Position numbers and translations under genes: made by a program. A stretch of 15,333 nucleotides of DNA, taken from Bacteroidales bacterium. GTDB lineage: Bacteria; Bacteroidota; Bacteroidia; Bacteroidales; UBA932. The notes under the pieces were generated by a model that was given only the letters and a program-made list of their open reading frames with translations, made no database searches and was not told the DNA's origin. The stretch lies in the NCBI GenBank assembly GCA_024402115.1, contig JAKSJQ010000045.1, positions 1 to 15,333 on the forward strand, given 5' to 3'. Positions 504 to 15,333 of the stretch are shown piece after piece (within the stretch, counting starts at the first letter, position 1; every line of letters starts with the position of its first letter).

Positions 504-1232
504 CTAGCTATAGAGTCCGCCGTTGATAGAGATGCATTCTCCGGTGATGTACGATGACTCCTTGGATGCGAGGAAACCGACGAGATTTGCGACCTCCTCA
601 GGCTCGCCGAAACGGTTCATAGGGATATGTTTCTTGAGCTCAGCCTCGTCGAGACCATCTACCATGTCCGTCCTGACGAAGCCAGGAGCGACTGCGTTGA
701 CGGTGATGCCTTTGCGGGCAACCTCCTGGGCGAGAGCCTTGGTCGCAGCGATGAGGCCGCCCTTGGCAGCAGAATAGTTGGTCTGACCGGTCATTCCCTT
801 GAGTCCTGACAGAGAGGCCATATTGATCACGCGGCCGAACCTGTGCATGAGCATAGGCTTGATAAGGAGCGAAGTCACGTTGTAGAAGCCGCCGAGATTG
901 GTGTTGATCACCTTGCCCCAATCCTCTGGGGACATCCAGACGATGAGGTTGTCCTTGCGTATGCCGGCGTTGTTCACCACTACCTCGATGTAATCTTCTG
1001 GATGGGCCTGCTGCCATGCCGTGATGGCGTCGCGAGTCTGTTCCGCGTCTGAGACATCAAACTTCAGCAACTGTGCGTCGCCACCTTCTGACTTGATCTG
1101 ATCAACGGTCTCCTGGGCCTTCGCCTCGTTGGACACATAGTTCACGAGGACTGTATAGCCCATGGATGCAAGCTTGAGGCTCACCGCACGTCCGATTCCG
1201 CGGCTGCCTCCTGTTACCAATGCGTATTTCAT
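504..1232 (-). CDS. fabG: 3-oxoacyl-ACP reductase, FabG-type short-chain dehydrogenase
   Basis: This is a 242-residue classical SDR, the usual length for FabG, expected to reduce 3-ketoacyl-ACP to 3-hydroxyacyl-ACP with NADPH in the cytoplasm. The nucleotide-binding TGGSRGIG lies at residues 7-14 and NNAG at 87-90. The catalytic set is complete: Asn112, Ser140, Tyr153 and Lys157 (YSAAK). PG at the start of the PGFVRTDM motif and the C-terminal TGECISINGG also fit the family. The ATG overlaps the stop of the upstream oxidoreductase gene by four bases (ATGA), so translation is probably coupled. As the last gene of the ketosynthase operon it more likely serves a dedicated polyene or specialised fatty-acyl pathway than housekeeping fatty acid synthesis. 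That assignment is inference; the sequence alone does not separate the two roles. Confidence 0.9.
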   Translation of the reverse strand: MKYALVTGGSRGIGRAVSLKLASMGYTVLVNYVSNEAKAQETVDQIKSEGGDAQLLKFDVSDAEQTRDAITAWQQAHPEDYIEVVVNNAGIRKDNLIVWMSPEDWGKVINTNLGGFYNVTSLLIKPMLMHRFGRVINMASLSGLKGMTGQTNYSAAKGGLIAATKALAQEVARKGITVNAVAPGFVRTDMVDGLDEAELKKHIPMNRFGEPEEVANLVGFLASKESSYITGECISINGGLYS

Positions 1233-2539
1233 ATATTCTTTCCTAATATTTTTTCACATGTACGATATGACGACTTGGTCACCCCAAGCACGCCGTGTAT
1301 TCCGATGTTCTGGCCCGTCAGATATAGGTTCGCCAACGGCGTCCTTACTGAAAGCGAAGTCCTCATGATATCGCTGCAATCCCTCACCAATCCATACGCA
1401 GAACCTCCAGGAGTTCCCGTATAACGCTCATAGGTGGATGGTGTGCTGACGTATGCGGCATCAATCGCATCCCTGAGCCAAGGCAGCCTGCACGACACGA
1501 ATTCGACGCAACGGTCCACGAGCTCTTCGCGCGACACGAATTCCGTCCTGGTCATCAAGTCCACCGTCCCCTCACCGAAACTTATGCCCACAGTCTCGAG
1601 AACATCGGTACGAGGATTCCAGAGATCGGCGTCTTCCGAATGCACATAGACGCTGCGGTTCTCCCCTGCAGGCGCACAGTCTCGAAGTCGTATGTTGACG
1701 GTCGAAAGACCCTTGGTGTTCTCCAGACTCGCGACTCTAGTCCTATATATCTTTCTCAGCCCGTCCGTCATCGCAACCAGAGCTGAAGGGTGTATGTCCG
1801 ACACCACCACATCTGCGGAATAGCGATCCCCATCCTCTGTCAGGACGGCGGATACCGCTCCGCCATTGCTTTCCAGGGCAGTGACCTTCTTACCAGTGAG
1901 CACATCACCGCCCTTCGAGCGTATACCCTCTGCAAGCTTCTCCGCAAGCTGGCTTCCACCTCCGCGAAGTCGCCATGTACCCCTGATGAAGGCATCATTT
2001 ATCCTCGCGAAAGTATAGAGAGGAAGCCTCTTCGAATCAAGCTCCATCTTGAGCGACGTACCCGAAACCACCTTCCTCAGAAGAGGGTCCGAAATGGTCT
2101 TGCAAAGCCATGAGTATGCGTTCATCTCCATGTACTCAGGATGCCCGTCAACTTGTCTGAGCTGAAGCACAAAGTCCTTGATTTCGTCTGCCGACGACGG
2201 GAAATAGCCGCACAGGGCCTCCTCATAGGCAGGATAACCTGACGGGAGAAAGAAACTCTGTCCTCCAATGCAGACCTCCTCGCCGTCGAGACGCTTCCAC
2301 GGCAGTTCCATGAGACCGAAGTCTGCAAAAAGACTTTCCAGACCGCCATCCTCACCCGCTCCACCGACGAAATGGAGTCCGGTGTCAAAGGTCGCGGATC
2401 CTCTGCGGAAGGACTGCATGCAGCCACCTATGGTGCTGTGCTGCTCGAGTACGGTCACCTTCCATCCGTGGCGGGAAAGGATATGACCGCATTGCAGACC
2501 TCCGAGTCCGCTGCCAATGACTATGGCGCTGCGTTCCAT
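1229..2539 (-). CDS. FAD-dependent oxidoreductase, phytoene desaturase/retinol saturase-like (aryl-polyene-cluster type)
   Basis: A 436-residue flavoprotein with the Rossmann fingerprint GSGLGG at residues 9-14, followed by VLEQHSTIGGC, where the acidic residue binds the FAD ribose and GG continues the dinucleotide-binding motif. TFDTGLHFVGG and the C-terminal LYLTGQNIGIHGVLGV (second FAD-contact region) are typical of the CrtI/CrtISO/retinol-saturase superfamily, and this form of the C-terminal motif is familiar from oxidoreductases in Bacteroidota flexirubin and aryl-polyene clusters. The protein is somewhat shorter than most CrtI desaturases. Its start codon directly follows the ketosynthase stop (0-base gap), and its stop overlaps the fabG start, so it sits centrally in a three-gene operon. 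No carotenoid synthesis gene is nearby, which argues against a carotenoid substrate. The likely role is adjusting the oxidation or geometry of a polyene acyl chain; this is inference. Confidence 0.8.
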   Translation of the reverse strand: MERSAIVIGSGLGGLQCGHILSRHGWKVTVLEQHSTIGGCMQSFRRGSATFDTGLHFVGGAGEDGGLESLFADFGLMELPWKRLDGEEVCIGGQSFFLPSGYPAYEEALCGYFPSSADEIKDFVLQLRQVDGHPEYMEMNAYSWLCKTISDPLLRKVVSGTSLKMELDSKRLPLYTFARINDAFIRGTWRLRGGGSQLAEKLAEGIRSKGGDVLTGKKVTALESNGGAVSAVLTEDGDRYSADVVVSDIHPSALVAMTDGLRKIYRTRVASLENTKGLSTVNIRLRDCAPAGENRSVYVHSEDADLWNPRTDVLETVGISFGEGTVDLMTRTEFVSREELVDRCVEFVSCRLPWLRDAIDAAYVSTPSTYERYTGTPGGSAYGLVRDCSDIMRTSLSVRTPLANLYLTGQNIGIHGVLGVTKSSYRTCEKILGKNI

Positions 2540-3757
2540 CTAGAGGTTCCTGATTATCAGGGTTGAGTTGGTACCTCCGAAGCCGAAGGAGTTTGAGAGG
2601 AAGGTGTCGAAGCCCTTCTCTATGGTATGGGACGGGATCAAGAGCTTTGCCGAATCCTCGTCCGGATTCTCGAAATTGATGTTTCCGGCGATGAATCCAC
2701 CCTTCATCATGAGAATGGAATAGATAACTTCGCTGGCTCCGGCCATCCACATCTCATGCCCGGTCTGGCACTTCGTGCTCGTCACCTCGGTGCGCTGATC
2801 TCCGAAAACATTGTAGATCGCCTTTGCCTCATTTGCATCTCCGACGTGGGTGGAGGTTGCATGGGCATTGATGTATCCGATCTCGCGGATATCGATTCCA
2901 GCACGGCGGATAGCCATGGAAAGAGACTTCGACGGACCTTCTACATTAGGTGAGGAAATATGGTCTCCATTGCTTGAAAATCCATATCCGAGCACCTCTG
3001 CGATGATAGGAGCGCCTCTTCTGACCGCAGATTCATAGCTCTCGAGTATGACGGTAGCTGCTCCGCCGCCAGGCACGAGGCCGTCCCTGTCACGATCGAA
3101 AGGACGGCTAGCCTTGGTCGGCTCGTCCTCCCTGATGGAAAATGCCGAGATGCCGTCGAACGAGCCTACCGATGCCGGATTCACCTCCTGTGCGCCACCG
3201 CATACCACCATCTCCTGAAGTCCGTTCTGGATAAGAAGAGCCGCGAGGCCAATAGCGTGCGATCCGCTGGCACATGCTCCGGAAACGGTGAGGTTGATAC
3301 CCTTGAGCTTGAAGATGCAGCCCAGGTTCATAGTCACGGTAGAGTTCATGGACTGGAAGATGGCGCCCGAACCGCAGAGGGTGGTGTCCTTCTTCTCCAT
3401 GATAGTATTCACAGCCTTGTAGACAGGCTCAGCCGTACTGTCGTTTCCATAGAGAAGACCGACATCGTGGGTATCAAGATAATCCTGGGTTATGCCGGCA
3501 GATGCCAGGGCATCGCGAGTCGCACAGTAGGCATACTTTGCCTGCTCCGGCATATACACCCTCTGGTTCCTGGAAAGTTCCTTCTTCAGATCCGGAACTT
3601 CGAGAAAGGCAGTGAGACCTGAGCGGAAACCCATCTCCTTGCGAAACGGATCGAGTATGATTCCTGATTTTCCAGTGTAGAGAGAATCCCTCACCTCGTC
3701 AAGGCTCTTGCCAAGGCAGGAATATATTCCCATGCCGGTAATTACGACTCTGTTCAT
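2540..3757 (-). CDS. Beta-ketoacyl-ACP synthase (aryl polyene/flexirubin-type KS)
   Basis: A 405-residue thiolase-fold condensing enzyme that extends an acyl chain with malonyl-ACP. The N terminus RVVITGMG is typical of FabF/FabB. The catalytic triad is present: Cys162 in SGACASG, His299 in NAHATST and His334 in QTGHE, with Lys329 before it; the C-terminal NSFGFGGTNS is also intact. The segment after the second histidine (EMWMAGASEVIYS) differs from housekeeping FabF and resembles ketosynthases of Bacteroidota aryl-polyene clusters. An in-frame ATG at 3823 would add 22 residues but lies upstream of the predicted promoter (3781-3813), and family alignment begins at MNRVVITG, so 3757 is chosen. 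It is the first gene of an operon followed with no gap by the oxidoreductase and then fabG. ACP, dehydratase and aromatic starter genes are not visible here. Confidence 0.87.
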   Translation of the reverse strand: MNRVVITGMGIYSCLGKSLDEVRDSLYTGKSGIILDPFRKEMGFRSGLTAFLEVPDLKKELSRNQRVYMPEQAKYAYCATRDALASAGITQDYLDTHDVGLLYGNDSTAEPVYKAVNTIMEKKDTTLCGSGAIFQSMNSTVTMNLGCIFKLKGINLTVSGACASGSHAIGLAALLIQNGLQEMVVCGGAQEVNPASVGSFDGISAFSIREDEPTKASRPFDRDRDGLVPGGGAATVILESYESAVRRGAPIIAEVLGYGFSSNGDHISSPNVEGPSKSLSMAIRRAGIDIREIGYINAHATSTHVGDANEAKAIYNVFGDQRTEVTSTKCQTGHEMWMAGASEVIYSILMMKGGFIAGNINFENPDEDSAKLLIPSHTIEKGFDTFLSNSFGFGGTNSTLIIRNL

Positions 3758-3780
3758 AGGGTATACATTATATAGGAGTG

Positions 3781-3813
3781 CAAATATACGAAAAAAGCCG
3801 TTGGGCACGCAAA
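3781..3813 (-). promoter_or_regulatory. Bacteroidota-type promoter of the ketosynthase operon
   Basis: On the minus strand TTTG (3813-3810), a 21-base spacer and TATATTTG (3788-3781) match the -33/-7 consensus of the Bacteroidota primary sigma factor. Transcription would begin only some 20 bases before the ATG at 3757, giving a short leader, and excludes the in-frame ATG at 3823. The promoter lies immediately downstream of the tRNA-Val terminator. Confidence 0.75.
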
Positions 3814-3825
3814 CAGCAGACATAT

Positions 3826-5733: not shown

Positions 5734-8700
5734 TCATCTTGACTGCAGTTCTCCTGTATACTCGCTATTCGCGACGTAGTGCGGAGCGTAAAGGCATTCA
5801 ATAGACGCAACCGGAGCTGCAAAGCTGCCCGCCTGAGTCACGTAGAATGTCTCGGACACGGTTGTCGTCTCCTCGGGATAGCTGTCGAAGAAGTATTCCG
5901 TCATCGAAGCTTTGACGTTCCTATAGCCCTGCGGAGTGCATGAGTACCACCCGTCGACAAAGAGCGGCCTGAGCCACCAGCGCATCATTCCCGAGAGCTG
6001 GTTCTCCGGTCTGAGAGAAGCCGGGCGAGGCACGCAGACATGGACGAAGCTGCGATTCTCCTCGTTCCATATCCTGACTTCGGAAACGACCTTGTCCCCA
6101 ACCGACAGAACATCACCAGACTTGAGGGCACTTCCGTCCTCCCTCTTATATAAAACCTCAACCTTGAAGCCATTTCCAGCGGACCTGATCTGCTGGAATG
6201 GCAATTCATTTTCGCCGGAAAGGATCAGCACGCGCATGTCCTTCATCGCCCCGCTTCCGTCCATCACCGACGATAGCGCTTCCATGTAGGCAGGATCAAC
6301 ATCCCACTGCTGGGTCTCCTTCTGCACCATGATCCATATCCTGATCGCATCGGCGAGCTCCTCGTATCCAAAATCGCGGAAGATATCGCAGAGCAGGGCA
6401 TGAGCCTGAAGCTCACTTTCCATGAGTCCTCTGAACGGCATCACCGCATTTGGGAAATATTTGCCACCGGAACGGTGTTCCACAGCATACTCTATCAGAG
6501 ATGCGACATCCGCTTCGAGAGACCGCTGCATCTTCTTCTCCGCAGAGAGTCGCACGCCAAGAGCCCTCGCAAGCCTCAGGCCCTCATCAGAAGCCGTAAG
6601 CAGGCTGAGCGTCCTTATCCTGTAAGCCTTCATGAGGATCGCGCCATTCACGCCTCGACCATTCTTCGGAACGAGATACTGGCTCACTGCCTTCCTGTAC
6701 TCCGCGCTTGGCTGAGCAGCCAGCTTCACATCCGCATAGTGAGCGCGGACGAGGAGATATTGCTCCAGCGACATACCGCCGCACCAAGAAGGTCTCTTCC
6801 TATCCTTGAGCATCTGCGTATCGATATACTTCACCGCAGACTCGAGGACATCGTCATCAAGCCCGAGAGAAAGTCCGCTGTCTTCGAGGGCAGCAGCGCG
6901 TTTGAGCACGGCGGCAGTGACGACAGGAGATGAATCCATTCCCTCGAACCATCCGAATCCGCCGTCCGCATTCCTGCATGCAAGTATCTTGTCAAGCATT
7001 CCGTCGTCAAGCTTCTCCATTCCGAGAGTCCTGGCGATGACGGACGCATAGAGGGACTCCGTGAGGGAGATGACGTCCTTGGCCTCTGTCGAAATCTTCT
7101 CCGGAATGGCTTCTCGGATAAGGTCCATGATAGTCCTCTCCGAAAGCACGGCTGACTCGGCAGGCACATTCACGAAGAGAGAGCGCAGATGTGCGACGAT
7201 CGCATCCCTATCCTGCCCTGCGAAGACGATGGATGAATGCGACTCGCGTATCGTCTGCGACGGGCGCTTCACCGGCACGCTTACGAAGACTCCGTCGGAA
7301 ATCGCTGCGCCGCCCTCATTTCCGCTGAAGACGAGCTTGAGTCCCAGGACTTCTGCCTGAGGCACATCAATCTCGAACTCCACGCCGGCGGCACCGTTCG
7401 CCTCAACCTTGACAGCCCTTGACATTGCGGCTACAGGACTTGCATTCTCATGCTTTTCTGTCGTATAGACATAAGCCGAGACCTTACCATCAACCGGGAG
7501 AACGCTCGAGTTCGAGAGATTCGCCTTCAGAACATACTTGTCACCCACATACAACAGCTGAGGCTCAACCACCGAAAGCTTGACAGGGATCGTCACCTTG
7601 AATGATTCCCTCGCCACCGCGCTGTTCATATCCTTGTCATGTGCGAACACGTTGATAATGTAGGTCGACAACTTATCTGAGGTAGTGAATTCGAAACTTA
7701 TCTTCCCGTCCTTGTCTGGACGGAGGAACGGCTCGAATGCGACGGTATTGGCAAAGTCCTCCCTGAGCACACCTGCGACCTCCGGTTCATCTCCGCCATC
7801 ATCCTCCATCATTTCGAAGGCCTCCTCTTCAATGATTCCGGACGACATGGTATTCACCTTACCCATCGCCCTAGGTGCCATATCGCGCACCGCCAGGTTG
7901 ACGCTAGCCTTGGACATGTACATGCCGTTCTCAGCCATTTCCCCGTCAACATAGAACCTGTCATCGTAGATGGAGCCCATGGACGATGAGCCGCAGACTG
8001 AGTTATATGAGATATATGGGAGCGACGGGCGCATGCGGTAGACCTCATACCAGCAGTTCGGGAAAATCACCTCCGTAGCCGCGTCGAAGATAGATGCGGC
8101 AGCCTCGACTCCGGCAGCAGTCGCCAGGGTCACGTCATATTTGGCAGACGGCGATGTGACGTCGCTGAAACGGCTGACGGCCAGAGGGAGCTTCACCTCT
8201 TGCGCAGCCTTGCTTATCTCCTTACTGTAACGACCGACTCTACCACCCTTGAAGTAGAAGACGTGCAGGACGACCTTGTCCGGCCATGATCTTGGATAAT
8301 CAATATGCTTATGTACGACAGAGCCTTTCTGGCCACGGATGCCTCCCACCTTCACAATCTCAGAACGAAGCAATTCTTCGCCATAGCCGAACACCTCGAC
8401 ACAAACCCAGAGAGGTCCTCGTCCGGATGCCATCTGCAGCGAGATGTCATCATCTTTCTCAATTACACGGAACAAGCTCTCCACATCAGCATCAAAGACA
8501 GTCTCGTCTTCAGAAATCCTGATGAAAGTACATGAAGTTCTGTCTGAGACAACGCTACCATCGGCTTTTTTCGCAGCTGCCTCGACCTCCAGGGCATATC
8601 GGCCTGAAGGAAGTGAGGCTATGCCTATGTCGAGTCTCTCGCCAAGAGTCAAGGAGCCTACTCCCATGAGCTTGTCCTTGTCGCCCAGAATCCTATATAT

Positions 8701-10920
8701 GATCTCAGCATCTCCGTTGTTGCCAGTCTTCACGCCGAGTTCATTGCCTATACTTGCCCTGACTGTCAGCACATCCCCATCGACAACGTTCTGCTGCGAC
8801 GCTTCGACTGCATTCTCGACCTCGACGGTTACGGACGGGCGGCGCATCACAAAGAATGAAGTATTGAACTCGAGAGTTTCGCCTGTGTTGTCCACCACCT
8901 TTACGATCACGTCACAATATCCGTACTTAACGTCCTTTGCGACAAGTTCGAACGAGCCATCCGGAGCAACGGTGACGGGATCAAGTTCGTCATCCGAATC
9001 ACGATAGCCACGCCCGATATGGGCGAAGACCTTTGCAGATGCCAGCGAGTGACCGGAATAGCTGGTCGCCCAAGCCTTTATGCGGACGGTATCTCCCTCG
9101 AGGAAGAACCTTACTATTTTTTCGAAGCGCACATCGAAGGTCGGGAGCACGAAATCATCGACACGAAGACCTGCATCGCCTATGTAGTTCTTCCCGTCAA
9201 GGACCCTAAGCGTGAAATATCCATTCCTGAGACCGTGCGGGATTTCGATAGAGCCCGCGATTGAACCGAAGTCGTTCGTGCTGGCCTTCACAGTTTTCAC
9301 ATCCTTGCCCTCTGCATCGACAAGGGACACCGTGACTGTTTTCCCGGCTATCGGAGCATAGTCATAGCCCTTGTTGGAATAGACCACAGCCTTGTACTGG
9401 ACAGTTTCTCCGGGCTTGAACGCCGTCCTGTCAAGCAGAACATGCGCCATCGTAGACTCAGAGATACGTTCCTCGCCCATCGAGTAATATCTGGCACCAA
9501 GGCGGTCCGAGCAGCGGTAAATTCCGCCAGTTTTGTCCACATGGCTGCATACCAGATAATTCGGACGATAACGCCCCTCGCCGTTCGCTTTCTTTATCGC
9601 CGCAACCATATTATCCGGGAGAGGAGTGAATCCGTCAATGGCAAGGCCCTTGGCTGTCGCCGTCTCCTTTCCATCCACGAAGAAAGACAGGTCGACCACG
9701 TCAAGCGGCTCGCCAGTCTTATAGTCAGCAGCAAAGATGGCATAACCACGAGAATCCTGACGGAATGCAGCAGAGATCGTATGACGTGAATAGCGAGACT
9801 TCGAATTCACGTCCTTTCCCTTCACGAGTACATCGTAATCCCCGTCGTCTATCCTTGGCAGAATCACAACGGCCTCATCCTGGAGATAGAATCTGTCCGC
9901 AGGATTCTCGACCGTCGATGCCCAAACTTTCTTCCCGTCTTTCCTCGACACCAACTCAACGCTGGCCTTGTCCAAGTTGCGGAAACATATGCGGAGGGTA
10001 TCATCTTCTATATCAGCTCTTGCCGAACGCACTTCAAGGGCGTCCAAAATGTCACGGACCTCGACGCAGCAATCGGCAAGCCTGCGCTCGTCACCGCTAA
10101 AAGCCTTGCGTTCCTTCTCAAAGGCCTGGCATTTCGCATGGTAGGACTTGACCCAGTCTTCCGCAACATCCTTTTCCAGAGAGAGCTTCTTCACATCCGC
10201 CTTGAGGAGCTGCTGACGAGAAAGCATTGCGGCGGCCTTACCGGCGTACTTATCGGCATGAGCCTCCAATGCCCTGATGCGGTCATCAGCGTTCACTTCC
10301 TGATTCGCATCAAGATATTCCAAGACTGCATATCCGGGATAGCTTTTGCCAATTTCGGCAAGAAGCGCATCGGAGCAATGCGTTCCATTTAAGCGGCATG
10401 CCCACAGAGCGAATTCAAGATCATTTCTGACCAAGGTACCCACATAGGAGCCAAGACCGTCCCAGGTAGAAAACCACGCCCTGCTGAAAGCTGTGACATT
10501 GCTCTGTCTGAGCTCCGAGGCATGTTCCATGGCATAGTCAAGAACAGAGGAGCCAGATCCTCTCTGAAGGCGATAATACAGTTCCATCACCGGCAATCCG
10601 TAATCCTCGACAGCCTTTCGGAACTCCTCCCTCGCGTTATCAACATCCTTCCAGTTGATTCTACGACGAACCTGGACCTTGTTCTCACCTGCGACATAAT
10701 AATCATACGGAATACGTCGCGACAAGGATTCCTTTAGAATCTTATCCAACGCAGCAAGCTGCTTTTGGGGAAGATCCTTGCTCTCCGCAGCACGATATTC
10801 CTTCCACAATTCCTTCAATTGCAGATCATCGTCGTCAGACATGGCCTCGACCGGCCTGTTGAAAAAGAAAAGCGCAAGGGCCACCAGGACCGTTGCTACA
10901 ATCAGACATGTTCTACCCAT
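5734..10920 (-). CDS. Alpha-2-macroglobulin family protein, exported, without thioester motif
   Basis: A 1728-residue protein with a Sec signal peptide (about residues 1-26, hydrophobic VLVALALFFF, likely cleavage after VEA). There is no lipobox, so it is probably soluble in the periplasm. The N-terminal third is helix-rich, then macroglobulin domains follow: an MG2-like segment near 490-590 (DRTAFKPGETVQYKAVVY), a very acidic loop near 1030-1050 and the A2M core LREDFANTVAFEPFL near 1053. A thioester-domain-like helical region (about 1220-1500) contains GGFGWFEGMDSS, and the C terminus shows FYVTQAGSFAAPVASIECLYAP. Bacterial relatives are thought to trap or inhibit proteases that reach the periplasm. 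The CxEQ thioester motif expected in the helical domain is absent, so covalent trapping is unlikely. The start overlaps the end of folC by 19 bases behind a GGAGG site, implying co-transcription. Confidence 0.9.
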   Translation of the reverse strand: MGRTCLIVATVLVALALFFFNRPVEAMSDDDDLQLKELWKEYRAAESKDLPQKQLAALDKILKESLSRRIPYDYYVAGENKVQVRRRINWKDVDNAREEFRKAVEDYGLPVMELYYRLQRGSGSSVLDYAMEHASELRQSNVTAFSRAWFSTWDGLGSYVGTLVRNDLEFALWACRLNGTHCSDALLAEIGKSYPGYAVLEYLDANQEVNADDRIRALEAHADKYAGKAAAMLSRQQLLKADVKKLSLEKDVAEDWVKSYHAKCQAFEKERKAFSGDERRLADCCVEVRDILDALEVRSARADIEDDTLRICFRNLDKASVELVSRKDGKKVWASTVENPADRFYLQDEAVVILPRIDDGDYDVLVKGKDVNSKSRYSRHTISAAFRQDSRGYAIFAADYKTGEPLDVVDLSFFVDGKETATAKGLAIDGFTPLPDNMVAAIKKANGEGRYRPNYLVCSHVDKTGGIYRCSDRLGARYYSMGEERISESTMAHVLLDRTAFKPGETVQYKAVVYSNKGYDYAPIAGKTVTVSLVDAEGKDVKTVKASTNDFGSIAGSIEIPHGLRNGYFTLRVLDGKNYIGDAGLRVDDFVLPTFDVRFEKIVRFFLEGDTVRIKAWATSYSGHSLASAKVFAHIGRGYRDSDDELDPVTVAPDGSFELVAKDVKYGYCDVIVKVVDNTGETLEFNTSFFVMRRPSVTVEVENAVEASQQNVVDGDVLTVRASIGNELGVKTGNNGDAEIIYRILGDKDKLMGVGSLTLGERLDIGIASLPSGRYALEVEAAAKKADGSVVSDRTSCTFIRISEDETVFDADVESLFRVIEKDDDISLQMASGRGPLWVCVEVFGYGEELLRSEIVKVGGIRGQKGSVVHKHIDYPRSWPDKVVLHVFYFKGGRVGRYSKEISKAAQEVKLPLAVSRFSDVTSPSAKYDVTLATAAGVEAAASIFDAATEVIFPNCWYEVYRMRPSLPYISYNSVCGSSSMGSIYDDRFYVDGEMAENGMYMSKASVNLAVRDMAPRAMGKVNTMSSGIIEEEAFEMMEDDGGDEPEVAGVLREDFANTVAFEPFLRPDKDGKISFEFTTSDKLSTYIINVFAHDKDMNSAVARESFKVTIPVKLSVVEPQLLYVGDKYVLKANLSNSSVLPVDGKVSAYVYTTEKHENASPVAAMSRAVKVEANGAAGVEFEIDVPQAEVLGLKLVFSGNEGGAAISDGVFVSVPVKRPSQTIRESHSSIVFAGQDRDAIVAHLRSLFVNVPAESAVLSERTIMDLIREAIPEKISTEAKDVISLTESLYASVIARTLGMEKLDDGMLDKILACRNADGGFGWFEGMDSSPVVTAAVLKRAAALEDSGLSLGLDDDVLESAVKYIDTQMLKDRKRPSWCGGMSLEQYLLVRAHYADVKLAAQPSAEYRKAVSQYLVPKNGRGVNGAILMKAYRIRTLSLLTASDEGLRLARALGVRLSAEKKMQRSLEADVASLIEYAVEHRSGGKYFPNAVMPFRGLMESELQAHALLCDIFRDFGYEELADAIRIWIMVQKETQQWDVDPAYMEALSSVMDGSGAMKDMRVLILSGENELPFQQIRSAGNGFKVEVLYKREDGSALKSGDVLSVGDKVVSEVRIWNEENRSFVHVCVPRPASLRPENQLSGMMRWWLRPLFVDGWYSCTPQGYRNVKASMTEYFFDSYPEETTTVSETFYVTQAGSFAAPVASIECLYAPHYVANSEYTGELQSR

Positions 10921-12251
10921 GATATTGCCTCCGATACTACATAAGTACTTCCTCCTACGTAAATCAAAGGTAATGCCATACTTTCACTCAGTCTACGAGC
11001 AAGAGCGACAGCATCGCCTACCCCAGGTTCGACATGGACGGAAGCTGCCTTACGGCCAAGAACGGAAAAACGCTCTGCGATAACAGCCGCAGGCATAGCA
11101 CGGTGACTGTCAGCGGCCGTGAACACTATGTTCGCACGTTCCGGAATCAGGGACAGCACGGCATCGACATCCTTGTCCGCGACACTGCCGTAGACCATGA
11201 CGAGATCCGACACTTTCCCCTGGTCGAGCATCTTTTCGAGCTGGCCGAAATTGTATTTCAGACCATGTGCGTTGTGACCGATGTCGCATATGGTGAGGGG
11301 ATCGGTCGAAATGCGCTCCCAGCGGCCGTGGAAATCAGCCAGTCTTGCGGTGTTCTCGATGGCATACACGACCTCGTCGGAAAGTTCTGTACCGAGTATC
11401 TCGAGGGCAGCCAGGACCGTGCGGAGGTTCTTCCTCTGATACGAGCCCTGAAGGTCCATCGCAGAGAGAATCTCATCCGCTCTTTCCCAGCCTCTAGGCT
11501 CGCATTTGTCCGCAAAGGTGAGCAAGGACATGATACGAGTTCTGTCACCCATGAAATCAGGTTCCGGGAGATTGGTATACAAGACTTTACGCTCGAAGAC
11601 AATATCTATTTCCGGAGAGCTCTCACCCACCACAACAGGGGTCTTCGGCTTGATGATTCCTGCCTTTTCGAAGGCTATCTCACCGAGGCTTTCGCCCAGT
11701 ATGTCGCAGTGGTCAAGTCCTATGTTCGTGATCACGGAAAGCTCAGGTGAGATGAGGTTGGTACTATCCAGTCTTCCGCCAAGTCCGCTCTCTATCACGG
11801 CAAGGTCGACGCCCTGCTTGGCGAACCAGTCAAATGCCATCATGGTGGTTATCTCGAAGAACGAGAGGCCGAGATTGTCGAAGGTGGAATCCCAAGTCTG
11901 CACGAAGTCCCATACGTCGTCCTTGCCGATCAGACGAACCTCACCTTTCTCCAGCACCCTCATCCTCTCCCTGAAGTCGAGGATATGGGGAGAAGTGTAG
12001 AGCCCGACCTTGAGCCCGGTCGCTGACAGAGACGCCGCGAGCATGTTGGACACCGAGCCCTTACCATTGGTACCTGCGACATGGATAGTGCGGTACCTGC
12101 GATGCGGATGGCCGGCGAGCTGATCGAGGAATTCCATCCTGTCAAGGCCTGGCTTATAGGCATCCTTTCCGGCTGTCTGGAAGGACTGGAAACGGGTATA
12201 CAGACCCGCAATCATCTTTTCGTATGCTTCGTTGCTGAATGAAGATTCCAT
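10902..12251 (-). CDS. folC: Bifunctional folylpolyglutamate synthase/dihydrofolate synthase
   Basis: A 449-residue Mur-ligase-fold enzyme of normal FolC length. It joins glutamate to dihydropteroate to give dihydrofolate, and adds further glutamates to reduced folates, using ATP in the cytoplasm. Evidence: the ATP-binding loop GTNGKGSVSNML beginning at residue 60, LYTSPHILDFRERM typical of FolC, the middle-domain motif VIESGLGGRLDSTN and TNIGLDHCDILG, and the C-terminal-domain motif DIGHNAHG with the conserved His-Asn. The ATG at 12251 is the first start after the divergent intergenic region and gives a normal N terminus. A TAAATTTG box (12278-12271) lies 19 bases upstream of the start codon. 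The 3' end overlaps the alpha-2-macroglobulin gene. Divergent from it is a PurL-like gene; folate supplies formyl groups to purine synthesis, a suggestive but unproven link. Confidence 0.95.
   Translation of the reverse strand: MESSFSNEAYEKMIAGLYTRFQSFQTAGKDAYKPGLDRMEFLDQLAGHPHRRYRTIHVAGTNGKGSVSNMLAASLSATGLKVGLYTSPHILDFRERMRVLEKGEVRLIGKDDVWDFVQTWDSTFDNLGLSFFEITTMMAFDWFAKQGVDLAVIESGLGGRLDSTNLISPELSVITNIGLDHCDILGESLGEIAFEKAGIIKPKTPVVVGESSPEIDIVFERKVLYTNLPEPDFMGDRTRIMSLLTFADKCEPRGWERADEILSAMDLQGSYQRKNLRTVLAALEILGTELSDEVVYAIENTARLADFHGRWERISTDPLTICDIGHNAHGLKYNFGQLEKMLDQGKVSDLVMVYGSVADKDVDAVLSLIPERANIVFTAADSHRAMPAAVIAERFSVLGRKAASVHVEPGVGDAVALARRLSESMALPLIYVGGSTYVVSEAISWVEHV
10928..10932 (-). promoter_or_regulatory. 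Strong Shine-Dalgarno site for the alpha-2-macroglobulin gene
   Basis: GGAGG on the minus strand (10932-10928) lies 7 bases before the ATG at 10920, inside the last codons of folC. Most Bacteroidota genes lack a clear Shine-Dalgarno and the other starts in this window show only weak purine stretches, so this site supports the 10920 start and internal re-initiation in the folC transcript. Confidence 0.7.
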
Positions 12252-12314: not shown

Positions 12315-13412
12315 ATGAAGCAGAACGAAGCACTGTATTCGCAGTATCTGATTGACGGCATCGAGACCGACAACACTCCGGCTGAGCTCCTCAGGGACTA
12401 TGGGGAAGCATGTGTGCCGGAAGAGGCGTGTCCGGGGCAGATCGTGGACGAATCCCTCGACCCAAATCCGAAACCAAGCACCTTCCGTCAGTCTCAGGTG
12501 GCCTCGTACATCGAGTCCATCATGAATCTTCCCGACAAGTTCCCTACCAGGCATCCCCGTTCGGGAGCCAAGACCAGGGTGGCCGTATCGCTCATAGACA
12601 CCTTATGGCTTGACGGACATTTCCGTCTGGGCAACCTTGGGATCAGCCCGAAGTGGAGATGGAACGACACTAAGATGGGCAACATGGCGGCCTTCTACCA
12701 GAGCGTCGAGGCCCTCTGCGAATATGTGAGCGAGATGGGGCTCAAGGTGGAGCAGTACGGATTCGAGGAAAGCGACGGGGACTGTCATCTCGACATCGAC
12801 GTCAAGTTCTCGCCCGTCGCGACGATGGAGGAGGAAGAGGCAGACGAGATCGTTCCCGGAAAGAAGCGCAACTGCCCGGACAAGGCGCGCAAGGAAGCCG
12901 ACAGCTGGATAGTGTACGTACCATTCGACACCTGTCCATACAGGCTCGGAGCATCAGCGCTCTCGGCATTTGCCGGAAACGGTGCCGACAACGCACCTGA
13001 AGTCCAGGACGCGGACTACTTCATCGACTGCTACGAGCTCATCCGAGAGATGGTGGAGGACGGAGTCGCCCTGAGCGGAGTGACCGTCGGTAAGGGCGGG
13101 CTCATGACAGCGGCCGCCAGGCTCTGCGCAGAGACAGGAACCACGCTCGACGTCAGCGGAATCGCAAGCTCGTACGATGAGGCAAGCGCTGCGCGCATCC
13201 TTTTCGGAGAGGTCCCTGGCGTCCTCATACAATTCAGCGACATTGATTTTGACTACATAGACTCCCAGTTCCTTCTTCAGGACGTTGCCTATTACCCACT
13301 GGGCCATCCTGACGGAATCGCAGGCCAGATCGGGGTACGCCACAGCAGAAAACCGGCTGTGGCAGGCATCTTAGGAGCCCTCCTCGGACAGACAAGCGAG
13401 GGAGAAGATTAA
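12315..13412 (+). CDS. Stand-alone PurL (FGAM synthase) C-half-like protein, probable pseudoenzyme
   Basis: A 365-residue protein that lines up, from memory of PurL sequences, with the second half of the PurL synthetase region (AIRS-type fold) but carries no glutaminase domain. Matching segments in order are: TRVAVSLIDTLW (about 87-98) against the AESLTN helix; GISPKWRW (109-116) against the SANWM strand; AFYQSVEALCEYVSEMGLKV (126-145); YRLGASALSAFAG (209-221) against LGATALAQVY; VGKGGLMTAAARL (258-270) against the DRSDGGL helix; and LFGEVPGVLIQ (296-306) against LFNEELGAVIQ. The ATP-site GKDSMSM is missing and the acidic residues of DRSDGGL are lost, so FGAM synthase activity is unlikely. 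An inserted charged stretch (about 171-196, EEEEADE then KKRNC) replaces a PurL loop. No signal peptide is seen. It lies 6 bases before the PIN-PhoH gene, probably one operon, and diverges from folC. Function unknown. Confidence 0.7.
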   Translation: MKQNEALYSQYLIDGIETDNTPAELLRDYGEACVPEEACPGQIVDESLDPNPKPSTFRQSQVASYIESIMNLPDKFPTRHPRSGAKTRVAVSLIDTLWLDGHFRLGNLGISPKWRWNDTKMGNMAAFYQSVEALCEYVSEMGLKVEQYGFEESDGDCHLDIDVKFSPVATMEEEEADEIVPGKKRNCPDKARKEADSWIVYVPFDTCPYRLGASALSAFAGNGADNAPEVQDADYFIDCYELIREMVEDGVALSGVTVGKGGLMTAAARLCAETGTTLDVSGIASSYDEASAARILFGEVPGVLIQFSDIDFDYIDSQFLLQDVAYYPLGHPDGIAGQIGVRHSRKPAVAGILGALLGQTSEGED

Positions 13413-13418
13413 TAACAC

Positions 13419-14762
13419 ATGAGCAAACCAAAGATTTTCGTGTTGGACACCAATGTAGTCCTCCACGACCACAAGGCCATCCGCAAGTTCCAGGAAAATG
13501 ACCTGGTTATCCCTATTGCGGTAATCGAAGAGCTTGACCACTTCAAGAAAGGCAATGACGCCCTTGCATTCAATGCGAGAGGCTTCGTGCGCGACCTCGA
13601 CAGAATGTCCGATCGAAGGCAGTTCGGAAAGGACGGCATCCAGATCGGAAAGGGTCTGGGAAAGATCAGGATCGAGGTCAACCATCCGTTCCCTGACGCA
13701 CTGAAGGAGTGCTTCATGGACGACATCCAGGACCATAGGATCATCGCCACCGCGATGTGGGTCCGCGACCACAACCCTGACAGGTTCGTGGCCCTCGTGA
13801 CCAAGGACATCAACATGCGAATGAAGGCGAAGGCCGTCGGAATGGAGGTGCAGGACTACCTGACCGACCGCGTCGACGAGGAGAAGATCGAAGGTGTGGC
13901 AAAGGAGGTCCTCACCGTCGAGGACGTCAGTCCGGAGGAACTCCAGAAGCTCGTCTATGGACCGGAGAACGCGATTCCATGGAAGTCCGTATGCCCGAAG
14001 GAGCCGCTTCCGAACCAACTTTTCAAGCTCTGCTGGCCGGGCGAAGGAGCACCGGTCACCACAGCGCGCTACGATAAGGCCACCGCACGCGTAGTGCTCG
14101 TGAAGGAGAGCAACGCGTACGGAATCAAGCCTCGAAACGCGGAGCAGAAATTCGCGATGGACGCCTGCATGAACAAGGACATTCCTCTCGTGTCTCTCAC
14201 CGGAGGTGCGGGCACGGGAAAGACCCTCGTCGCACTCGCATCGGCGCTTGAGCAGGAAAGGGACTTCGAGCAGATCATCATCTCACGCCCTACCGTCGTG
14301 CTCGGCGGCCAGGACATAGGATTCCTCCCTGGAGACCAGAAGACAAAGATGAGCCCGTACGTCCAGCCGTTGATGGACAACCTCAACGTGATCAAGAACG
14401 GATTCAAGCCTGGCAGCAAGCAGGCGCTTCACATCGAGAACCTCCTCAACGACGAGAAGATTCTCATCTCCCCTCTCGCATATATCAGGGGACGTTCGCT
14501 CGGAAAGGTCTTCTTCATCATCGACGAGGCCCAGAACCTCACCCCTCATGAGATCAAGACCATCATCACCAGGGCAGGAGAAGGCACGAAGATCGTGTTC
14601 ACGGGAGATATCTTCCAGATCGACCAGCCTTACCTCGACCAATGGTCGAACGGCCTCACCCACCTGAACAACAAGTTCCGTGGCCAGGTCCTCTTCGAGC
14701 ATGTGAACATGAGAAAGGGAGAGAGGAGCGAATTGTCCGAAATCGCCGCAAAGTTATTGTAA
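13419..14762 (+). CDS. PIN-PhoH fusion protein (PhoH2/YlaK type), predicted RNase-coupled ATPase
   Basis: A 447-residue protein with an N-terminal PIN nuclease domain (about residues 4-140) and a C-terminal PhoH ATPase domain (about 240-447), the usual arrangement and length for the PhoH2/YlaK group. PIN acidic residues are visible in VLDTN (Asp10), IEELDHF (Glu38-39) and the later FMDDIQDHRI and LVTKDINMRMKA segments. The PhoH domain shows Walker A GGAGTGKT (about 262-269), ISRPTVVLG, Walker B FFIIDEAQN (DEAQ about 368-371) and VFTGDIFQID. Characterised mycobacterial PhoH2 unwinds and cleaves RNA, so a role in RNA metabolism is expected in the cytoplasm. The start is 6 bases after the PurL-like stop, suggesting co-expression. 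Mycobacterial phoH2 is preceded by a small antitoxin-like gene; nothing that small is present here. Confidence 0.92.
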   Translation: MSKPKIFVLDTNVVLHDHKAIRKFQENDLVIPIAVIEELDHFKKGNDALAFNARGFVRDLDRMSDRRQFGKDGIQIGKGLGKIRIEVNHPFPDALKECFMDDIQDHRIIATAMWVRDHNPDRFVALVTKDINMRMKAKAVGMEVQDYLTDRVDEEKIEGVAKEVLTVEDVSPEELQKLVYGPENAIPWKSVCPKEPLPNQLFKLCWPGEGAPVTTARYDKATARVVLVKESNAYGIKPRNAEQKFAMDACMNKDIPLVSLTGGAGTGKTLVALASALEQERDFEQIIISRPTVVLGGQDIGFLPGDQKTKMSPYVQPLMDNLNVIKNGFKPGSKQALHIENLLNDEKILISPLAYIRGRSLGKVFFIIDEAQNLTPHEIKTIITRAGEGTKIVFTGDIFQIDQPYLDQWSNGLTHLNNKFRGQVLFEHVNMRKGERSELSEIAAKLL

Positions 14763-14858: not shown

Positions 14859-15333
14859 ATGGCAGAAAACAAGAAAAGAGTCTACCGTTTCGGCGGTAAG
14901 AACGCAGAAGGCAATGGCAAGATGCGCGAGCTCCTCGGCGGTAAGGGTGCAAACCTCGCCGAGATGTGTACTCTCAGCATCCCTGTACCTGCAGGTTTCA
15001 CCATCACCACCGAGTGCTGTACTGAGTACTATCAGCTCGGAGGCGGTTACACTGCAGAACTCAAGAACGATGTAGCAGAAGCTCTCAAGGCTACTGAGGC
15101 AATCATGGGAATGAAGTTCGGCGACCCTGAGAATCCGCTCCTCGTGAGCTGTCGTTCAGGTGCAAGAAGCTCAATGCCTGGTATGATGGATACCATTCTC
15201 AACATCGGTCTCTGCTCAGCTACCATCCCTGGTATGATCAAGAAGACCGGTAACCCACGTTTCGTATACGATGCATATCGTCGTCTCATCATGATGTACT
15301 CTGACGTCGTAATGGAGAAGGCAGAGGGCATCG
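14859..15333 (+). CDS. ppdK: Pyruvate, phosphate dikinase, N-terminal part (3' end outside window)
   Basis: The first 158 residues are visible of a protein normally near 900 residues long. PPDK interconverts pyruvate, ATP and phosphate with phosphoenolpyruvate, AMP and pyrophosphate in the cytoplasm; in anaerobic Bacteroidales it links glycolysis and gluconeogenesis. Recognised by YRFGGKNAEG at the N terminus, ELLGGKGANLAEM, then IPVPAGFTITTE and the ATP-grasp segment LLVSCRSGARSSMPGMMDT followed by ILNIGL, all typical of the nucleotide-binding domain. The usual SVRSGA is SCRSGA here. The ATG at 14859 is preceded by an A/T-rich leader rather than a Shine-Dalgarno. Codon choice (CTC, GGT, CGT) is strongly biased, consistent with high expression. 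The gene appears to be transcribed from its own promoter, separately from the PIN-PhoH pair. Confidence 0.95.
   Translation, partial: MAENKKRVYRFGGKNAEGNGKMRELLGGKGANLAEMCTLSIPVPAGFTITTECCTEYYQLGGGYTAELKNDVAEALKATEAIMGMKFGDPENPLLVSCRSGARSSMPGMMDTILNIGLCSATIPGMIKKTGNPRFVYDAYRRLIMMYSDVVMEKAEGI

Follow-up and report, generated by a model that had tools for sequence, protein, structure and literature searches.

We analyzed a 15,333-nucleotide stretch of a Bacteroidales genome (contig JAKSJQ010000045.1; hereafter the window) that encodes, at positions 12315-13412 of the forward strand, a stand-alone protein derived from PurL, the phosphoribosylformylglycinamidine (FGAM) synthase of purine synthesis. 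The open reading frame is real: it begins with the ATG at 12315, ends with the stop codon at 13410-13412 and specifies 365 amino acids. This protein and its short family relatives are referred to as the orphan. The orphan occupies the old place of purL, and it is kept in genomes that lack both PurL and PurH.

A preliminary description of the window had recognized the PurL order of motifs in this protein and had noted the absence of the GKDS motif and of the glutaminase domain. The motif order is correct. The NCBIfam PurL models NF003672 (E 5.1e-14, 50.8 bits versus a cut-off of 783) and TIGR01735 (E 2.2e-13, 48.6 bits versus 1123) both match the orphan far better than expected by chance, and human PFAS was found in the PDB with E 8e-7 for the window protein and 1.4e-20 for the orphan family profile. 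By score, however, the orphan falls outside the PurL family, as the matches are partial in length and lie far below the curated cut-offs of both models. The proposed search for an AIRS_C domain gave a divided answer: Pfam AIRS_C (PF02769) stayed below its gathering cut-off in the window protein (13.5 versus 23.1 bits), whereas the domain is present in the precomputed annotation of many relatives. Among 120 relatives listed, three carry the source name phosphoribosylformylglycinamidine synthase, which is probably misleading. The nearest named record, with 92% protein identity, belongs to a metagenome-assembled genome of Candidatus Cryptobacteroides caccocaballi; on this basis, genus g1 of our genome searches was equated with Cryptobacteroides. 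A sequence search with an orphan from g40 returned 47 relatives of 343-428 amino acids, and no lineage of a different kind was seen among them.

When a profile of 60 orphans was compared with one of 23 clade-I PurL rows (21 distinct), residues 43-344 aligned to PurL 560-916 with a probability of 100 and an E-value of 2.2e-40. The orphan corresponds to the second half (A2/B2) of the PurL synthetase domain. PurL 199-559 and everything past approximately 930 have no counterpart, which bears out the claimed loss of the glutaminase domain, and the profile alignment skips roughly 56 residues of PurL, between 591 and 648. The segments of the gene are as follows:

12315..13412, forward strand: stand-alone PurL-derived protein, 365 amino acids plus stop
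12327..12410, forward strand: N-terminal remnant, residues 5-32, on clade-I PurL 171-198 just after SEHCRH (ALYSQYLIDG; D14 and G15 invariant); a weak alternative profile match
12441..12533, forward strand: B1-A2 linker and first helix, residues 43-73, on PurL 560-590; D45 and E46 invariant
12534..12539, forward strand: residues 74-75, site of the approximately 56 missing PurL residues (first A2 strands, Asp679 loop); aligned differently by the PDB profile search
12540..12884, forward strand: remainder of the A2 subdomain, from residue 76 to approximately 190; the A2/B2 boundary is approximate, from predicted strands
12585..12599, forward strand: residues 91-95, position of the Glu and Asn of PurL EALTN; Val91 and Asp95 here
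12885..13346, forward strand: B2 subdomain, approximately residues 191-344
13083..13085, forward strand: residue 257, Thr where PurL HDxSxGG has an invariant Asp
13239..13283, forward strand: residues 309-323, DIDFDYIDSQFLLQD, an acidic stretch fixed in the orphan family and mostly not in PurL
13347..13409, forward strand: C-terminal helix and tail, residues 345-365, replacing the glutaminase domain; 55 of the 60 sequences finish in EGED

Residues 56-75 were placed differently by the two methods. The PDB profile search assigned these profile positions to Salmonella PurL residues from the Asp679 loop onward, whereas the profile comparison assigned them to the B1-A2 helix. We prefer the latter placement because the g40 sequence PIEYSASRNEEYMERLL matches PurL PLEYDEEDIEYYLEMVM. 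The absence of the entire first synthetase half, as initially described, holds for most of that half but not wholly, given the short N-terminal segment that matches PurL just after SEHCRH. This match is colinear with the main alignment, though weak alone. In this segment the g40 sequence NLFEAKFVIDGIEQESTLKEL resembles PurL KIFNGTFIIDGKEKESTLFKL, and its best ungapped stretch fell on the exact PurL 171-198 site in 56, 51 and 59 of the 60 orphans for three references. The PDB profile search pairs the same residues with Salmonella PurL, at 1.4 bits.

To compare the proteins position by position, the 60 orphans were set against the 21 clade-I PurL sequences, with the PurL rows cut to residues 82-332 of the window protein. 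Thirty positions that are conserved in at least 95% of the PurL sequences are kept in fewer than 10% of the orphans. These include the Glu of EALTN (91), the Lys-Asp of GKDS (156-157) and the His-Asp of HDxSxGG (256-257), so that the residues by which an A2/B2 half would be recognized as PurL are gone, as are the synthetase active-site half (A1/B1) and the glutaminase domain. Both the profile alignment and this comparison confirm that the GKDS motif is absent. Regarding the acidic residues of DRSDGGL, which had been described as lost, the first Asp is indeed lost; the second does not count, as Bacteroidales clade-I PurL already reads HDISAGGL. A passage of PMC3815217 places in PurL A2/B2 an ADP site whose function it calls unknown, with Asp679 near the second phosphate of this ADP. 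The Asp679 position is not Asp in the orphan under either alignment. Glu718, Asn722 and Asp884, which we take to be further ligands of the site, were located relative to the orphan by the PDB profile search, which shows position only.

The orphans have also gained conserved residues of their own. While 24 positions are common to orphans and PurL, 39 are candidates for novel fixation. Eight of these (Y65, I352, L353, L356, E362-D365) have no PurL residues to compare; among the 31 comparable positions, seven are found in at least 10 of the 21 PurL sequences and 24 are new to the orphans. Eleven of the 24 new positions are acidic (D205, D234, D238, E241, E245, E248, D249, D311, D313, D316 and D323). 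The median isoelectric point of the orphans is 4.38, and the charge of A2/B2 at pH 7 is about -21, compared to -5 in PurL of the same family and -10 in PurL of other families. The new acidic positions suggest a basic partner. EGED ends 55 of the 60 sequences and EDDQDA two, with neither in three g40 sequences. The codons of EGED vary at third positions and the tail persists where the downstream gene, phoH, is absent, which speaks against its being a mere ribosome-binding signal for that gene.

The AlphaFold model of the orphan (predicted local distance difference test, pLDDT, 91) aligns with Salmonella PurL over 325 residues and has the A+B subdomain fold of the AIRS type (PurM/PurL superfamily). 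The proposed check by structure prediction thus came out in favor of an AIRS-type fold. According to a passage of PMC3815217, the barrel that lies between the two PurL halves includes A2 strands. Given that the active half and the barrel strands are gone, the orphan should lack both PurL chemistry and A1-A2 pairing, and it is presumably monomeric. Such a protein could be a sensor or a new enzyme, with the A2-B2 cleft binding another small molecule or a metal via new residues. It may also bind some nucleotide at a new site, in line with one suggestion of the preliminary description. The intact A+B unit of the predicted structure, the invariance of D45, E46, D232, D238 and E241, and the Asp found in 68% of orphans at the old EALTN Asn position are all compatible with this explanation. 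We nevertheless regard it as unlikely: Asp679 of the ADP site and the invariant cleft Glu and Asp are gone, and no new catalytic motif was recognised in the orphan sequences.

The place of the orphan in the genome is that of purL. The neighbouring genes of the window are:

10902..12251, reverse strand: FolC-like Mur ligase family gene, the divergent neighbour, which also flanks full-length purL in sister genera
13419..14762, forward strand: PhoH2-type gene (PIN plus PhoH), found downstream of the orphan in 52 of 64 loci
14859..15332, forward strand: start of the pyruvate phosphate dikinase (PPDK) gene, which follows next and is truncated by the end of the window

We inspected 64 orphan loci, which include repeats of the same genome. 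folC lies divergently on the left in 60 of them; phoH lies on the right in the 52 loci mentioned, in L082 with approximately 2 kb between, and some of the 12 remaining loci end too early to show it. Seventeen loci with full-length clade-I purL were hand-picked from many more PurL-bearing genomes, 15 from the same family and two from other families. Within the family, folC stands divergently beside purL in 12 of 15 loci and phoH downstream in 8 of 15; neither gene accompanies the two purL loci from other families.

In a draw of 149 genomes of the family (at least 85% complete), the orphan was found in 18/18 g1 and 3/3 g40 genomes. The remaining matches lay in frames of 565-1331 amino acids, besides a weak second match in G124 (g28) at C43:16213-16470 (E 6e-5), in a 372-amino-acid frame beside the normal PurL match of that genome. 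In five g33 genomes (G069, G087, G104, G116 and G126) the PurL-matching frames measure only 565-711 amino acids; in G069 and G087 the front part of PurL matches on another contig (frames of 584 and 571 amino acids), perhaps a split PurL. All 21 orphan-bearing genomes of the draw also possess a clade-II PurL, located away from the orphan locus. In the tree, the 17 orphans included form a single group inside clade I (100/100) and have 11 of the 13 PurL sequences of the family as their neighbours; clade II is set apart, also at 100/100. Descent of the orphan from clade-II PurL is thereby rejected. Clade II also occurs without an orphan remnant, in 9 of 17 g39 genomes and in G086 (g28), while 5 of the 17 g39 genomes retain clade I; the orphan profile had no match in any of 12 clade-II genomes tested outside g1 and g40, two of them from other families. 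Within the order, clade-I PurL has given way to clade-II PurL on more than one occasion (g39 and G086; also noted at G038 and G051).

Since the orphan sits where sister genera have full-length purL, it is almost certainly a shortened descendant of the ancestral clade-I purL, still in place. The preliminary description was right that the gene has its own ATG beside a divergent gene; its conclusion that this is not a broken full-length purL is not supported in view of the position and the tree.

The six bases that separate the orphan from phoH in the window, and the frequency of phoH downstream, would fit a role of the orphan as a partner of the neighbouring PhoH2 RNase-helicase or as its translational leader. 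This neighbourhood, however, was inherited from full-length purL, and the codons of EGED vary. L040 (5995-9900) has no phoH2, and there the orphan is immediately followed by PPDK in an otherwise usual order. Full-length PhoH2 is missing in 10 of 11 genomes with a phoH-less orphan locus, of which five are 58-84% complete and six of unstated completeness, with the contig ending early in two. Going by these genomes and L040, the orphan seems not to depend on PhoH2, and a role as its partner or leader is improbable.

Further to the left, a 1728-amino-acid bacterial alpha-2-macroglobulin family protein is encoded at 5734-10920 on the reverse strand, its frame overlapping the end of folC by 19 bases; this gene stays close to folC in many orphan loci. 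At 504-3823, also on the reverse strand, genes for a short-chain dehydrogenase, an amine-oxidase-type flavoprotein and a ketosynthase lie in a row and perhaps belong to a cluster of the polyketide or aryl-polyene type.

The orphan is not decaying. The ratio of nonsynonymous to synonymous substitution rates (dN/dS) between the window and L037 is 0.069, and it ranges from 0.042 to 0.192 over the 40 pairs computed out of 65, rough values given that many dS exceed 1. Of 150 g1 genomes, each at least 90% complete, 149 carry the orphan. A functionless relic would fit a shortened descendant of a replaced gene, but this explanation is hardly credible, as it is contradicted by purifying selection and by the near-complete retention, along with the invariant residues and the new conserved tail. 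What had been described as a conserved, intact PurL-type protein with an AIRS-type fold and without the known active-site residues is thus supported. Judged from sequence, the orphan would be a pseudoenzyme in the general sense, that is, a protein of enzyme descent that has lost its catalytic residues and is under purifying selection, and it is presumably without catalysis.

Clade-II PurL was found in 116 of the 150 genomes, 115 of which carry the orphan. A full PurL therefore accompanies most orphans, though one of clade II rather than clade I. PurH is likewise present in 116 genomes (117 before G231 was discarded, whose one match covers only 39 residues within a 1474-amino-acid frame). G274 lacks PurL only and G256 PurH only, and 33 genomes lack both, a count in which genomes not named in the lists were obtained by subtraction. 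The orphan is present in every one of the 33, including G231 (10 contigs) and G275 (20 contigs), both 96% complete. It is unlikely that 22% of genomes lost the PurL-PurH cluster by assembly gaps alone at this completeness. Judged from the genes of this cluster alone, the 33 would be purine auxotrophs, and their number suggests that purine synthesis was lost repeatedly or throughout a lineage in Cryptobacteroides. In a mixed-quality set of 37 g1 genomes, 36 have the orphan and 11 lack clade-II PurL; G005 lacks both.

Because all 33 genomes without PurL and PurH keep the orphan, a role common to all these species cannot need either enzyme, and the conserved role is probably not purine synthesis. 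The suggestion that the protein regulates or scaffolds this pathway, for example by binding clade-II PurL, draws on its PurL descent and on its presence in nearly all genomes with clade-II PurL. As the conserved role it is rejected by the PurL/PurH-less genomes; the 12 clade-II genomes outside g1 and g40 also manage without an orphan, and overall we consider such a regulator quite improbable. The preliminary description had further held that a genome without any other purL would imply a split functional enzyme. An orphan that equals one half of a synthetase domain could in principle be one subunit of a split, working FGAM synthase. This does not fit: in the 10 genomes of the mixed-quality set that have the orphan but no clade-II PurL, three PurL models matched nothing but the orphan (TIGR01735 and TIGR01736 were run on two, G006 and G020, of the 34 PurL-less genomes of the 150-genome draw), the remaining PurL-bearing genomes have a complete clade-II enzyme or fragments thereof, and the active-site residues are lost. 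We reject a split enzyme as virtually out of the question.

Taken as a whole, the best explanation, with a probability of roughly 0.55, is that a displaced clade-I purL remnant was exapted as a non-catalytic adaptor or regulator. Clade-II PurL would have taken over FGAM synthesis in the common ancestor that Cryptobacteroides shares with one sister genus. The old clade-I gene would then have lost the PurS-like domain, A1/B1, the first A2 strands and the glutaminase domain, and the A2/B2 module would have been kept as a folded, acidic, non-catalytic protein with a role independent of purine synthesis. We infer this order of events, and likewise a partner. Most likely the orphan would serve as an adaptor between proteins or as a regulator, with the newly fixed acidic positions contacting the partner; the adaptor part is itself put forward tentatively. 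More speculative still is the idea that PurL of these bacteria had a second, non-metabolic role carried by A2/B2, and that after the clade-II takeover the old gene was stripped down to this role, its product now being a nearly universal core protein of the genus that does not depend on purine synthesis.

Several observations weigh against this explanation. The fork joining the orphans to PurL of the family has values of only 81/96. The N-terminal match has a profile probability of 1.2 and scored above all 200 shuffles in only 11, 8 and 16 of the 60 orphans. The acidity may be mere composition, and the EGED tail is absent from all three g40 sequences, which excludes it from the oldest role that the orphans have in common. 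One genome of the 150, G221, has no orphan match, and the copy in G230 contains one internal stop. Finally, G001 has PurL and PurH in a single cluster, so the two do not count as independent signs of auxotrophy.

The displaced purL remnant makes a single bacterial family a natural experiment in how an enzyme is exapted: the complete original and its replacement, the leftover at the former purL site and the apparent purine auxotrophs still carrying this leftover are all open to comparison. If the remnant does retain a second function that PurL had earlier, this role has been separated from the chemistry; the ADP site in A2/B2, described in a passage of PMC3815217 as being of unknown function, is relevant here. 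The orphan also marks a nearly universal Cryptobacteroides gene without an assigned function. Among the open-licence PMC matches listed, there was no report of a bacterial half-domain PurL remnant kept at the old purL place without purine synthesis. No open-licence PMC paper was found for Cryptobacteroides together with PurL, and in the matches listed for Cryptobacteroides and purine neither term stood in title or abstract.

Among known systems, the A2/B2 half of the clade-I large PurL (TIGR01735/NF003672) is like the orphan in sequence, order of elements, predicted fold and genomic place. Unlike this enzyme, the orphan is devoid of the PurS-like domain, A1/B1, the first A2 strands and the glutaminase domain, has none of the known active-site or ADP-site residues, and is kept without purine synthesis. 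The clade-II PurL (TIGR01857) belongs to the same superfamily and occurs in the same genomes, but it is full length, at about 1240 amino acids, and forms a separate branch of the tree. The single-unit AIRS-fold enzymes PurM, ThiL, SelD and HypE also count among the closest known systems. The ORF75 vGAT proteins of gammaherpesviruses are full-length. According to a passage of PMC6213852, they are relatives of PurL/PFAS without the catalytic triad that act through other proteins and recruit PFAS. That the orphan recruits a working PFAS or PurL in the same manner as its conserved role is unlikely, because PurL-less genomes keep it. As described in that passage, the vGAT pseudoenzymes resemble the orphan in being PurL/PFAS relatives without catalytic residues, but they are viral and linked to the PFAS of the host, whereas the orphan is a bacterial half-domain protein at the old place of purL.
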